Positions 14,726-19,638 of a stretch of 34,415 bases of DNA are shown here, piece by piece. The notes beneath the pieces were generated by a model. The model worked only from the letters and a program-made list of their open reading frames with translations. It did not search any database and was not told the origin of the DNA. Source of the stretch: Pedobacter schmidteae (lineage in GTDB: Bacteria; Bacteroidota; Bacteroidia; Sphingobacteriales; Sphingobacteriaceae); the NCBI GenBank assembly GCA_945901155.1, contig CAMDKO010000019.1, forward strand, positions 1 through 34,415. Direction: 5' to 3'. Every line of letters starts with the position of its first letter. The first letter of the stretch is position 1. Made by a program: the position numbers and the translations under genes.

Positions 14726-15700
14726 ATGACTAACATCTTCGAAAAGTTCAATTCCTTGAATGTTCTTATAATCGGGGATGTAATGATTGACAGCTATATA
14801 TGGGGTAAAGTAGAGCGTATTTCTCCTGAAGCACCCGTTCCGGTAGTAAGAGTAACAAAAAAAGAAAATCGTTTAGGAGGGGCTGCAAACGTGGCTTTAA
14901 ACATTCAATCGCTTGGAGCATGTCCTTACATTTGCGCGGTAATAGGTGAAGATTCTGATGGTGAAAATTTTCTTTCATTATTAAATGCACAGGGGCTATC
15001 CGATGAGGGGCTTATTAAAATAAAAACAAGGCCAACTACCGTCAAGACCAGAATAATTGCCCATAATAAGCAAATAGCAAGGTTTGATGCCGAAACTGAA
15101 CGTAATCTAACCAGCTATAACACCATCATTGTTCTGAATAAGATAAAACAAATCATTGCTGATCACAGAATTGATGCAATTATCTTTGAAGATTATGATA
15201 AAGGGCTAATTACAGAAGAACTCATCGATAAAACTGTAAAACTGGCCAAAGAAATGGGGATTATCACGGTAGTTGACCCTAAAAAAAGAAATTTCCATGC
15301 CTATAAAGGCGTTCAGCTTTTCAAACCGAACCTTAAAGAATTAAGAGAAGGTCTTAAAATTGACATTGATCCTTCGGATATAGAGCAGATTGAGCAAGCA
15401 GTTGAAAAATTAAAGAAACAACTCGGGGCAAAGACTGTTATGCTAACCCTTTCTGAACATGGAGTTTATGTTAGTTCGGCAACTGGGAATAAGCATATAC
15501 TTGCACATAAACGCAACATAGCCGATGTTTCTGGAGCTGGAGACACCGTTATAGCTACCGCAGCACTATGTTTGGCGGCAGGTTTAAATGAATTTAAAAC
15601 TGCCGAAATAGCAAATTTAGCTGGAGGATTAGTCTGCGAACATGTTGGGGTGGTACCAATTGATAAGGCTAGATTGCTGAGAGAGGTTGAGGAGTTGTAA
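14726..15700 (+). CDS. hldA: D-glycero-beta-D-manno-heptose-7-phosphate kinase (PfkB family)
   Basis: Phosphorylates heptose-7-phosphate at C1 on the route to ADP-heptose for the LPS inner core. The 324-residue PfkB-fold protein opens with VLIIGDVMIDSYIWGKVERI (13-32) and has SPEAPVPVV (33-41), the ligand GG of RLGGAANVALN (49-59), and VSGAGDTV (268-275), the anion-hole and catalytic-base motif with D273. The SPEAPVPV phrase is diagnostic for RfaE domain I within the sugar kinase family. The nucleotidyltransferase domain II of E. coli HldE is absent, as in organisms with separate kinase and adenylyltransferase genes; that partner is not in this window. The repeat array starts about 20 bp after its stop. 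Confidence 0.9.
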   Translation: MTNIFEKFNSLNVLIIGDVMIDSYIWGKVERISPEAPVPVVRVTKKENRLGGAANVALNIQSLGACPYICAVIGEDSDGENFLSLLNAQGLSDEGLIKIKTRPTTVKTRIIAHNKQIARFDAETERNLTSYNTIIVLNKIKQIIADHRIDAIIFEDYDKGLITEELIDKTVKLAKEMGIITVVDPKKRNFHAYKGVQLFKPNLKELREGLKIDIDPSDIEQIEQAVEKLKKQLGAKTVMLTLSEHGVYVSSATGNKHILAHKRNIADVSGAGDTVIATAALCLAAGLNEFKTAEIANLAGGLVCEHVGVVPIDKARLLREVEEL

Positions 15701-15748
15701 TTGATTGGTTAGTACATTAAATTGGAACCTAGAGCCAAGAGCCAAGAA

Positions 15749-15788
15749 CAAAGACTGTTTAGTGCTAATTGAAATTTTCTGCTTTTTT
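15749..15788 (+). repeat. 40-bp core copy 1 (G/T subtype)
   Basis: Starts CAAAGACTGTTTAG and ends TTTTCTGCTTTTTT. It belongs to the subtype with G after TTTA and GAAATTTTC in the middle, as in copy 4. Confidence 0.9.
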
Positions 15789-15884
15789 AATACTTCATAC
15801 CTCAGACTTCATACCTCAGACTTCTGACCTCATACCTCAGACAACTGATAACTGACAACTGAACCAAGAACCAAGAGCAAAGAG

Positions 15885-15924
15885 CAAAGACTGTGTGGTG
15901 CTAATTGAAATTTTCTGCTTTTTT
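15885..15924 (+). repeat. 40-bp core copy 2 (G/T subtype, two changes)
   Basis: Same core with TGTGTGG in place of TGTTTAG and GAAATTTTC in the middle. It is the most divergent copy, with two substitutions from copy 1. Confidence 0.9.
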
Positions 15925-15999
15925 CTGACTTCTGACTTCAGACTTCAGACTTCAGACCTCAGACAACTGAAATTGGAACCAAGAGCCAAGAACCAAGAG

Positions 16000-16039
16000 C
16001 AAAGACTGTTTACTGCTAATTGAAAATTTCTGCTTTTTT
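16000..16039 (+). repeat. 40-bp core copy 3 (C/A subtype)
   Basis: Has C after TTTA and GAAAATTTC in the middle, identical over 40 bp to copy 5. It is followed by a broken CAGACCT run and the AGTATTG heptamers. Confidence 0.9.
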
Positions 16040-16177
16040 CAGACCTCCCTTTCTCAGACAACCAATTTTGAGTATTGCGTATTGAGTATTGAGATAAATT
16101 AGCTTCATTTCATACAAGTGCCTCTGACCTCATACCTCAGACAACTGAAATTGGAACCAAGAGCCAAGAGCCAAGAA

Positions 16178-16217
16178 CAAAGACTGTTTAGTGCTAATTG
16201 AAATTTTCTGCTTTTTT
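16178..16217 (+). repeat. 40-bp core copy 4 (G/T subtype)
   Basis: Identical over 40 bp to copy 1. It is followed by six CAKACYT-type heptamers and five ACAACTG heptamers. Confidence 0.9.
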
Positions 16218-16327
16218 CATACCTCAGACTTCAGACCTCAGACTTCAGACTTCAGACCTCAGACAACTGACAACTGACAACTGACAACTGACAACTGAAC
16301 CAAGAACAAAGAGCCAAGAACCAAGAG

Positions 16328-16367
16328 CAAAGACTGTTTACTGCTAATTGAAAATTTCTGCTTTTTT
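16328..16367 (+). repeat. 40-bp core copy 5 (C/A subtype)
   Basis: Identical over 40 bp to copy 3. It is followed by a short CAKACYT run, then one ACAACTG and four ATAACTG heptamers that reach the permease stop codon. Confidence 0.9.
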
Positions 16368-16435
16368 CAGACCTCATACCTCCTACCTCAGACAACTGAT
16401 AACTGATAACTGATAACTGATAACTGACAACCCTC

Positions 16436-17683
16436 CTACTTACTCCTGATCGCTTCAACAGGATCTAACCTGGAAGCATTAAATGCTGGAATAAATCCTG
16501 AAATTAAACCAATAGCGGTAGAGAGAACCACTGTAAGAACTACTTTGCTTAAGTCTACTATAATTGTGAGATCAAAGAATGTTTTAGAAATAAATGCTAA
16601 TGCAAACACGATGAGGAGACCAATAAATCCACCCATTAAACAAAGCAGAACTGATTCAATAAGAAATTGAAGCAATATGAAATAATTCTTAGCGCCCAAA
16701 GACTTTTGAATTCCGATGATATTTGTACGTTCTTTTACAGATACAAACATAATATTAGCTATACCGAACCCGCCAACCAAAATTGAAAAGCCCCCAATAA
16801 TCGCACCTGCAATATCAATAATACCAAATAGCTGATCCAATTGCGCTGTAAGCACAGTTGTTTTGTTAAGAGAAAAATCATCGTCATCTTGCGGACCAAG
16901 CCTATGAATTGAACGCATTGTTCCTTTCAATTCACTCTCAAGTTCGTTTACTGAAATATTCTCTCTTCCCTTAATCGTAATTTGCGGCCCATAGCGTTCA
17001 TCTTCAACCTTAATTACACCCTTTGCAAAATTTAGCGGTATCAAAACGGTTTTATCAGCAGAAACGCCAAGCATATCTTCGCCTTCTTCAGTAAATACCC
17101 CAATAATGGTGACTCTCCTTCCTAAAACGGTAATAACTTTACCAATTGGATCTTCATTAGGGAACAAACCATCGGCAATTGAATAGCCAATAATTGCAAT
17201 AGGCCTACCGCCTTTTGATTCACTATCTGTAAAATAACGTCCAGATTGAAAATCGAATTTCCAAACCTTATAATAATCATGAGAAGCCGCTTTTATCTCT
17301 GCACCTTCAATACTATTATTTTTATACTTGATGGTACGATTTCCTACACCAATCTGAAATGAAATACCCTCAGCAGTTTGAAGACGTTCTGTAAGCTTTC
17401 CATAGTCACGTAGTGAGGGTTGAGGCCTGCTGATGTATTTCCACCACGGAAAATCTGGACCACCTACCCATGGCCACTTTTGAATATATATGGTATTACT
17501 TCCTAATTTTTCGACACTGTTTTGAATGTTGTTACGAAGGGTATCAACTGCCGAAAAAACTCCAACAATAGTCATTATACCGATCGTTATCCCTAACAAT
17601 GACAATATTGTTCTGAGTTTATTTTGCCTTAGGGCTCCAAAAGCAAACAAAAAACTCTCTTTTAAAAGCTTGAGAAATATCAT
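16436..17683 (-). CDS. ABC transporter permease, MacB/FtsX type
   Basis: A 415-residue inner-membrane permease with the MacB layout: one N-terminal helix (about 20-42, after ALRQNKLRTILSLLGITIGI), a large periplasmic domain (about 45-280), then three helices (about 287-310, 338-362, 378-400). It ends with the conserved coupling tail PAFNASRLDPVEAIRSK (PA..A..LDP.EAIR). ERTNIIGIQKSLGA is the typical cytoplasmic loop that touches the ATPase. Such transporters act as mechanotransmitters or exporters rather than classical importers. No ATPase is adjacent; the LolD/MacB-like ATPase at 20732-21493 on the same strand is the likely partner. Its stop codon touches the repeat array, so its transcript may run into it. 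Confidence 0.92.
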   Translation of the reverse strand: MIFLKLLKESFLFAFGALRQNKLRTILSLLGITIGIMTIVGVFSAVDTLRNNIQNSVEKLGSNTIYIQKWPWVGGPDFPWWKYISRPQPSLRDYGKLTERLQTAEGISFQIGVGNRTIKYKNNSIEGAEIKAASHDYYKVWKFDFQSGRYFTDSESKGGRPIAIIGYSIADGLFPNEDPIGKVITVLGRRVTIIGVFTEEGEDMLGVSADKTVLIPLNFAKGVIKVEDERYGPQITIKGRENISVNELESELKGTMRSIHRLGPQDDDDFSLNKTTVLTAQLDQLFGIIDIAGAIIGGFSILVGGFGIANIMFVSVKERTNIIGIQKSLGAKNYFILLQFLIESVLLCLMGGFIGLLIVFALAFISKTFFDLTIIVDLSKVVLTVVLSTAIGLISGFIPAFNASRLDPVEAIRSK

Positions 17684-18957: not shown

Positions 18958-19638
18958 TTGAAATACTACGCGATCATAGTAGGTGGTGGCTCCGGAAGCA
19001 GGATGCAATCTGATGTACCTAAACAATTTATGCTTTTGAATGGTAAACCTATTCTTATGCATACTATTGAGTCATTCTACTACTCAGATTTTAAGCCAGA
19101 GATCATTCTAGTATTAAATGTGGATTTCATCACTTATTGGGAGCAGCTTTGCGAAAAATATAATTTTTTAATTCCACATACCCTTATAAAAGGCGGGCTA
19201 CAACGATTCCACTCTGTTAAAAATGGAATTAAGGCAATAAAGGAAGACTCTGTTATTGCAATCCATGATGCAGTCAGGCCACTAGCCAGCAACGAACTAA
19301 TCTGTCGTTCTTTCAAAGAAGCTGAAGAATCAGGCAATGCAATAGTGGCTATTAAGTCTAAAGATTCAGTCAGACAACAAAAAGGCAATACAAGTCTATC
19401 ATTAAACAGAGATGAAATTTATCTGATTCAAACTCCTCAAACTTTTCAATTCGAGCTTCTTAATACAGCCTATAAGCAGGAATACAGCAATGAATTTACG
19501 GATGATGCATCAGTTGTAGAACGCACAGGCATTACTTTAAATTTGATAGAAGGCGAAAGTAAAAATCTCAAAATCACTTTTCCTGAAGACCTAAGTCTTG
19601 CTGAATTCTATCTGAGTCAAACAAAAAACAAAGCATAA
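18958..19638 (+). CDS. ispD: 2-C-methyl-D-erythritol 4-phosphate cytidylyltransferase
   Basis: IspD joins MEP to CTP, giving CDP-ME, the third step of the non-mevalonate isoprenoid route. The 226-residue protein has the nucleotidyl-transfer loop GGGSGSRMQSDVPKQF (9-24; Gly where many have Ala-Ala), LNGKPILMHTIE, IHDAVRPLAS (hallmark, about 102-111), and the QTPQTFQF / FTDDASVVE motifs. The start is TTG 18958: the sequence after it aligns with the family start MKYYAIIV, and no ATG is available upstream in frame. It probably shares the queA transcript. A strong bidirectional terminator directly follows the stop. Confidence 0.94.
   Translation: MKYYAIIVGGGSGSRMQSDVPKQFMLLNGKPILMHTIESFYYSDFKPEIILVLNVDFITYWEQLCEKYNFLIPHTLIKGGLQRFHSVKNGIKAIKEDSVIAIHDAVRPLASNELICRSFKEAEESGNAIVAIKSKDSVRQQKGNTSLSLNRDEIYLIQTPQTFQFELLNTAYKQEYSNEFTDDASVVERTGITLNLIEGESKNLKITFPEDLSLAEFYLSQTKNKA

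Follow-up and report, generated by a model that had tools for sequence, protein, structure and literature searches.

Heptanucleotide arrays beside genes in Daejeonella-type Sphingobacteriaceae share a strand polarity that is independent of the repeated word

Where a tandem heptanucleotide array adjoins a gene in these genomes, its G-richer (AGT-type) strand almost always runs 5′ to 3′ away from that gene, at stop and start codons alike. The parts of the earlier literature used here already record that heptamers are in excess and that single words are oriented at gene edges; added here are the word-independent rule, the arrays in IspG and MnmE loops, the apparent independence of the two arms of a slot, and the finding that models requiring a reverse transcriptase, a Y1 transposase or Ku lack support. 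That the rule is independent of the word is new here within a limited literature search, which found no published statement of it. Earlier explanations each dealt with one word; a rule valid for any word points to a single mechanism, one that is testable in culture with the isolate D. lutea. The tract at 15720-16435 of the window (the whole stretch of DNA analysed, 34 415 nt) is an example. Our tentative reading, which we hold to be short of probable, is that the tract belongs, as a single slot, to a population of heptanucleotide arrays spread across the genome in weakly constrained DNA, with a geometry set by DNA breakage and end processing. Weakly constrained DNA here means gaps between genes and variable loops of genes.

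The window belongs to a draft genome of 2.74 Mb in 191 contigs (G000), whose nearest relatives by HldE comparison are Daejeonella-type Sphingobacteriaceae. Eleven congeners with at least 17 matches to one unit are termed array-rich and nine with at most two array-poor, and these match counts cover only words resembling those of the window. Some congener genomes are 68-87% complete. Daejeonella lutea DSM 22385 (G018) and D. oryzae DSM 19973 (G015) are named DSM strains, so the array pattern is not limited to metagenome bins.

The tract and the dispersal of its parts

The tract holds five units between two convergent genes (Table 1). The hldE-type gene has its stop at 15700 and a TIGR02198 score of 335.5 bits, slightly under the cut-off of 345; the permease gene has its stop at 16436 and matches PRK10535 with E 3.7e-55, a score far under the cut-off for that model. 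The unit order is [ARCCAAG]n, a 39-bp core, [CAKACYT]n and [AYAACTG]n. In unit 2 the ACAACTG run is one copy only, and unit 3 is broken by a TTGAGTA block and a second core, after which CAKACYT and ACAACTG resume. Tandem Repeats Finder (TRF) reported arrays of period 7 (also 14 and 21) of the types AGAGCCA/GAACCAA, ATACCTC/TTCAGAC, GACAACT/AACTGAT and TTGAGTA. These arrays and the sequence agree with an earlier model-written note on this DNA (the sequence-only reading), which had all families heptameric and in this same order. It had also placed the five units around a conserved 40-bp core; five exact copies of the core, AAAGACTGTKTRSTGCTAATTGAAAWTTTCTGCTTTTTT, are indeed present, with no match in 100 shuffles, but the core measures 39 bp. 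The shared register that it had noted, ACAACTG|AACCAAG, is correct, and by eye CAGACYT is held in that register too. The heptad register is not continuous through the core, because the flanking heptads stand 38 bp apart across it (counted by hand) and the T-run there varies between loci. By eye, the second core recurs beside TTGAGTA/CAATACT words in L006, L007, L011, L021, L023 and L024.

Table 1. Features of the tract and its conserved edges, in window coordinates
Feature	Position	Strand	Basis
hldE-type heptose-7-phosphate kinase gene, left conserved edge	14726..15700	+	ORF; NCBIfam TIGR02198, E 2.7e-100
Left edge remnant TTGATTGGTTAGTACATTAAATTGGAACCT	15701..15730	+	Sequence
Unit 1 ARCCAAG-type heptamers	15731..15752	+	TRF, sequence
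Core copy 1	15750..15788	+	Pattern match, 0 mismatches
Unit 1 CAKACYT then AYAACTG heptamers	15790..15862	+	TRF
Unit 2 ARCCAAG-type heptamers	15861..15890	+	TRF
Core copy 2	15886..15924	+	Pattern match, 0 mismatches
Unit 2 CAGACYT heptamers and single ACAACTG	15923..15970	+	TRF, sequence
Unit 3 ARCCAAG-type heptamers	15976..16005	+	TRF
Core copy 3	16001..16039	+	Pattern match, 0 mismatches
TTGAGTA (= AGTATTG) heptamers	16068..16093	+	TRF
Second core (GATAAATTAGCTTCATTTCATAC type)	16094..16118	+	By eye
CAKACYT and ACAACTG heptamers preceding unit 4	16121..16147	+	Sequence
Unit 4 ARCCAAG-type heptamers	16154..16183	+	TRF
Core copy 4	16179..16217	+	Pattern match, 0 mismatches
Unit 4 CAKACYT then ACAACTG heptamers	16216..16298	+	TRF
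Unit 5 ARCCAAG-type heptamers	16297..16333	+	TRF
Core copy 5	16329..16367	+	Pattern match, 0 mismatches
Unit 5 CAKACYT then AYAACTG heptamers, adjoining the permease stop codon	16367..16431	+	TRF, edge listing
ABC transporter permease (MacB/FtsX-like) gene, right conserved edge	16436..17683	-	ORF; NCBIfam PRK10535

The suggestion that a protein or RNA reads 7-nt steps found no counterpart: a search of 15500-16700 gave no Rfam match, RNA folds of five window pieces did not improve on those of shuffles (z -1.5 to +1.9), and we identified no protein that binds or adds heptamers. The only terminator-like site in 15600-16600 lies beyond the tract, at 16514-16532. A scan for sigma-70-type promoter-like sites gave none, which carries little weight since Bacteroidota promoters differ.

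The core composite unit is clade-specific, dispersed and tandemly duplicated; heptamer arrays are not clade-specific. Counting the match to itself, the whole tract gave 83 BLAST matches within the genome it comes from, and the inner core (27 bp, at most three mismatches) has 25 copies in G000, 31 in G002 and 6 in G016. These matches, and the core copies in relatives, rule out a purely local duplication and answer the check proposed in the sequence-only reading, whether core and heptamers occur elsewhere. The core is clade-specific because it is present in those three genomes and, by the same match, has no copy in G001, G018 or G019. The seven further loci that were read repeat the unit order, L006 and L007 with extra blocks. 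One unit matched 20/60 genomes searched (own included), and (CAGTTNT)x3 was found in 42/395 Bacteroidota genomes and 22/170 genera, compared with 14 genomes (hand count) for the pattern reversed. The arrays are mostly noncoding, with a minority of segments inside ORF calls (26 at a limit of 100 codons, 22 at 150). Carriage of the core by phages or plasmids was unsupported: one exact scan of IMG/VR and one blastn against PLSDB plasmids each gave no match.

A 16-bp palindrome, CCCGATAGCTATCGGG, occurs in G000 and G002 (e.g. L022:1701, L007:479, L023:2368 and L206:5107). It has seven exact copies in 566 kb of G000, four of them within 100 bp of an array, six in 336 kb of G002 (three near arrays), one in 83 kb of G007 and none in the remaining sets scanned. 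Its presence differs between G000 and G002 at one slot, and it is also found inside the IspG loop of G019 (L271). D. lutea has a composite unit of its own, with GTTGAGR heptamers around a different core that carries ACTAAACGCTTAAAA (L185:17600-17970, 19040-19070), and a ACTAAACGCT motif adjoins other arrays there. An N run lies between array pieces at L185:18780-19010, and even isolate assemblies may therefore understate array length.

Seven-base period and turnover of words

The period-7 excess is not chance. A sample of ~170 kb, composed of the window and loci fetched for likeness to the tract, had 62 period-7 runs; among periods of 1-30 that are not multiples of 7 there were one run of 15, two of 27 and one of 30. 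Unselected surveys took contig starts or evenly spaced stretches. In 400 kb of G000, exact runs of periods 1-20 numbered 19 of 7, 6 of 14 and 2 of 11. The families keep a 7-bp period, as the sequence-only reading had claimed. D. lutea (320 kb) had 15 exact runs of 7, 3 of 14 and none off-multiple, G002 (220 kb) had 13 of 7, 5 of 14 and 6 others, and 441 kb from other Bacteroidota (68 loci) had 5 of 7, 2 of 14 and 5 others. Over 434 kb, a looser detector found 37 runs (2205 bp) of period 7, seven (206 bp) of period 6 and nine (358 bp) of period 15. With this detector the period-7 excess was seen in G000, G002, G007, G009, G018 and G019, was weak in G001, and no period-7 run was found in G003 or G015 (80 kb each). 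Non-7 periods occur, but rarely. Aligning G000 with G002, 14/34 periodic gaps were multiples of 7, and 8/40 in a second alignment, which suggests a moderate enrichment. A genome from another family, G041 (L255-L258), also has a period-7 excess, with seven runs (279 bp) in 74 kb.

From 308 runs we obtained 74 distinct circular words, the commonest including AACTGAT, AACTGAC, AACAGAT and AACAGAC. They have a common motif, approximately GTTRTCA, the reverse complement of the TAACTGA family; the EM log-likelihood of a shared motif was 51.1 vs 19.8 +/- 2.7 in 60 letter shuffles. The four families can no longer be called unrelated, as they had been in the sequence-only reading. Because the 74 words are not independent of one another, common descent suffices to explain the motif. 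GGG is found on either strand in 3/74.

Words turn over between close relatives at one slot, and the arrays are fast-evolving. Between the hldE-type and permease genes, G001 has CAGTTRT, TCCTTRY and GACAACY, G019 has CAGACMT, G018 has CAACTCT and CAACCGT, and in G006, G015 and G031 the gap is short and free of arrays. G000 and G002 are ~93% identical in most aligned pieces, yet wholly different at this slot.

Strand polarity at gene edges and inside genes

Gene edges are the ends of ORF calls, and short gaps were counted for both sides in the edge listing. With one vote per gap side, 89/97 were G-out (p 2e-18), where the vote takes in only arrays within 30 bp of the edge on that side, a limit chosen after distance-binned counts were known, and leaves out arrays with <60 bp on the far side and five ties. 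By genome, the counts were 39/45 in G000, 21/22 in G002, 9/10 in four other congeners and 20/20 in D. lutea alone; G000 and G002 have orthologous slots in common, so the votes are not fully independent. Stops gave 62:6 and starts 27:2. Unselected stretches (29/31) and hit-chosen ones (60/66) were alike G-out, the polarity sets of G000, G002 and D. lutea being partly of each kind. By gap class, votes were 30:4 in convergent, 37:2 and 18:1 in co-directional, and 4:1 in divergent gaps, the last being only five votes.

Polarity is confined to the neighbourhood of the edge. The AGT strand was outward in 48/51 arrays within 30 bp; farther out, arrays were mixed (15/21, 15/28 and 7/20), and the latter two counts, from beyond 80 bp, have no polarity. 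A whole-region vote by Fisher test gave p 0.70 in the window's own genome (not significant), 0.008 in D. lutea and 0.0008 in G002. Gaps with both orientations had AGT words on the left and ACT words on the right in 15/16. GC skew was 0.26 to 0.47 at array edges (Daejeonella sets with at least 13 edges) and -0.04 to 0.12 at array-free edges. When arrays were trimmed from ORFs, lag-7 AGT/ACT counts were 40:5 at stops and 15:3 at starts, and counts of G over C were 80:17 and 39:9. Purine content is a weaker rule than G over C (73:24). An ORF-calling artefact, in which stop-bearing words would end ORFs at array edges, was considered as the cause, but polarity survived both this trimming and two ORF length limits. 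The idea of stop codons in all frames was dropped after inspection by eye.

At the right end of our tract the G-richer (AGT) strand is directed away from the permease gene. The left end belongs to the ARCCAAG-type edges, which are an exception by G skew (seven G, four C, four ties); there AAG was outward in 15/17 and CTT in two. All edges except this type gave 80/84 G-out. In other Bacteroidota, with the fixed word CAGTTNT, 16/21 clusters outside ORF calls were G-out (p 0.027), including two near ties (L310, L312) and one cluster that fills its gap (L318); the full set was 31 clusters in 30 loci, from which 10 inside ORF calls were set aside.

Arrays exist outside promoters and terminators, as the in-gene cases show. 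MnmE and IspG were identified by NCBIfam TIGR00450 and TIGR00612, both above cut-off, and the arrays in their variable loops are in frame. The MnmE loop between NKxD and SAK carries arrays in 8/12 readable congeners, each with its own words; in the other four it is 51 bp and without arrays. Period-7 tracts are found in 10/16 parsed IspG loops. Among these 18 array loops (8 MnmE, 10 IspG), lag-7 AGT was scored in 16 left halves and three right halves, and lag-7 ACT in no left half and three right halves. Since ACT words that carry a stop codon cannot stand in coding sequence, it is the imbalance of AGT between left and right halves that supports the polarity inside genes. GC skew drops from left to right in all 18, though L265 is flat (0.36/0.35), and also in 7/10 array-free loops (5/6 IspG, 2/4 MnmE), so GC skew alone is not evidence inside genes. 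Arrays also occur in a menaquinone-biosynthesis gene of G002 (PF02621) and in D. lutea bioA. Housekeeping enzymes also gain protein variation from such in-frame loop arrays, which deserve attention for that reason.

Related repeats and possible origins

Cyanobacterial STRR are heptanucleotide repeats, and our arrays are like LSSR/STRR heptanucleotide repeats in having a 7-bp tandem excess over other periods and in being mostly noncoding and dispersed. Unlike those accounts, as far as they are cited in the sources used, the present one includes polarity and an analysis of in-gene loops. The 7-bp preference of bacterial repeats has been an open question since at least 2007, according to the parts used of MacGregor 2015 (PMC4679880) and Rehm 2015 (PMC4692102), which credit a hypothesis of heptanucleotide slippage preference to Mrazek 2007. 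One serious contender, though we would not call it probable, is replication slippage that inherently favours 7-nt steps in unconstrained DNA, on which selection for strand composition beside genes would later have imposed the polarity. It accounts for the period, the diversity of words and the confinement to free DNA, it fits the 14/34 gaps above, and heptanucleotides are reported to be the most frequent kind of long repeat in most genomes (same sources, same parts). It gives no ground, however, for outward words at both stops and starts, array-free edges have little skew, and we see no advantage that 5′ sides, 3′ sides and protein loops would all share.

MacGregor 2015 (PMC4679880) describes TAACTGA repeats in Beggiatoaceae, Cyanobacteria and five Bacteroidetes; in the parts used here, 147/170 sets of the orange Guaymas genome are directed toward the start codon (Table 1 of that paper), and Microcystis sets are mixed in orientation, in a small sample. 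The likenesses to those parts are the word family (AYAACTG), the 7-bp unit, mostly intergenic position, turnover between relatives and, in some Bacteroidetes examples there, mixed heptamers. TAACTGA directed toward starts is equivalent to the G-richer strand outward from the gene, the orientation of our starts (27:2). That account, so far as used, has one special word and possible translational regulation; ours has words by the dozen, composite units with a core, and arrays that also follow stops and lie within IspG and MnmE. Rehm 2015 (PMC4692102), in its parts used here, reports heptamers near ORFs, of GGGAATC type in Xanthomonas and GGGGAYT in Nostoc, which lie on the non-coding strand when they precede the ORF and on the coding strand when they follow it; it also mentions Calothrix heptanucleotides. 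Convergent pairs number 70 and 75 in two Xanthomonas genomes and are few in Nostoc; repeat-bearing regions are more stable than controls, and Xanthomonas has no replication-strand bias (same parts). Our arrays are like these in the 7-bp unit and in having the G-rich strand antisense before starts and sense after stops. The Rehm heptamers are discussed, in those parts, in terms of quadruplexes; unlike them, 71/74 of our words have no G-tract of three or more, so the geometry cannot depend on quadruplexes. A regulatory role, through quadruplexes as in Rehm 2015 or as sites of a post-transcriptional regulator near start codons as in MacGregor 2015, would suit the gene-proximal position of the arrays and the same geometry in both papers, as far as used. 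We nevertheless judge it improbable, as GGG is scarce, arrays also lie after stops and within MnmE and IspG loops, and the folds and Rfam search of the tract gave nothing in its favour.

If hairpins or bidirectional terminators had been selected in gaps, the left arm would pair with the right, as GAGAGTT/AACTCTC in L195 and CAGTTAT/ATAACAG in the MnmE gene of G002 could do. The arms of a slot are not clearly more complementary to one another than arms of different slots: shared 6-mers in the same slot vs different slots were 1.85 vs 4.67 in the window's own genome (20 slots), 2.80 vs 3.32 in G002 (10 slots) and 3.50 vs 1.60 in D. lutea (6 slots, permutation p 0.18). Given also the non-significant folds, we find this reading very unlikely. 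The observed geometry equals that of head-to-head telomere fusions, and some words resemble telomere repeats (GGGATTAGG, GGTTAGT). Tailing of DNA ends by a telomerase-like reverse transcriptase is, even so, scarcely credible, as RVT_1 is absent in 17/20 congeners, array-rich G000, G001, G002, G009 and G019 among them, with matches only in G003, G007 and G018; many words per genome are also a poor fit to a single RNA template.

REP/RAYT elements and MITEs are dispersed intergenic units, and the composite unit is like them in this. A mobile element, with a MITE- or REP-like core unit and heptamers as its ends, would explain why the unit order recurs at seven further loci and why the core is multicopy in three close relatives. 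Against it, in-gene arrays and many others have no core, the core is absent from the array-bearing G001, G018 and G019, and it was not found in IMG/VR or PLSDB (one scan each). Unlike REP/RAYT, moreover, the unit is made of heptamer arrays, and the array-rich G002, G016, G017 and G018 have no Y1 transposase, which speaks against the REP/TnpA link that the sequence-only reading had proposed to check; G000 (one match above cut-off) and other congeners do have one. We regard a mobile element as an unlikely source.

Something beyond plain slippage seems needed because the gene-edge arrays follow strand polarity. The sequence-only reading had reached a similar view, which the edge polarity upholds, although its argument from unrelated families does not stand, as they share a motif. 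Common to all cases is an edge between conserved and dispensable sequence. On the breakage model, DNA would break inside the dispensable sequence and both ends would be processed in the 3′ direction, which would give the geometry in one step; two forms of the model fit it. In one form, each 3′ end ending in AGT-like sequence would be extended in 7-nt steps. In the other, an AddAB-type helicase-nuclease degrading the gap would stop, Chi-like, at words in one orientation, and arrays with the G-richer strand pointing at the break would survive beside genes. Polymerase slippage may then alter copy number and ectopic recombination may spread core units, the latter suggested by core dispersal. The mechanism by which arrays are written or kept is unproven, and we favour the break model by inference.

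Chi sites of RecBCD and AddAB are short, G-rich and orientation-dependent, and are not known to be tandem. The words here are likewise short and G-rich, and they are oriented as a signal would need to be to shield the adjoining genes when the gap is broken; they differ in being tandem. Ku was found only in G003, G005, G006, G012, G015 and G018 among the 20 congeners. Its absence from 10/11 array-rich genomes (and presence in 5/9 array-poor ones), counts that ignore phylogeny, speaks against a need for Ku end joining; the ends would then have to be rejoined by a different pathway.

A wider proposal is doubtful: several phyla may share a strand-specific DNA-end reaction, so far undescribed, that acts in dispensable DNA without reverse transcriptase and writes or preserves tandem 7-nt words outward from conserved sequence. 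If so, a single reaction would have produced the Xanthomonas quadruplex repeats, the Beggiatoaceae TAACTGA repeats and the Bacteroidota mosaic arrays, and the in-frame MnmE and IspG arrays would be its traces inside genes. The polarity rule predicts the appearance of repair junctions.

A PDDEXK_1 protein is found in 20/20 congeners, array-poor ones included, and the copy in the window's genome is AddB-related (TIGR02786, 77 bits, under the cut-off of 486.5). The AddB-related protein is a necessary condition only and does not discriminate. The PDDEXK_1 frame in three array-poor genomes (G005:C16, G015:C1 and G013:C9) is longer and lower-scoring, at 1055-1075 aa vs 962-1022 aa in the other 17.
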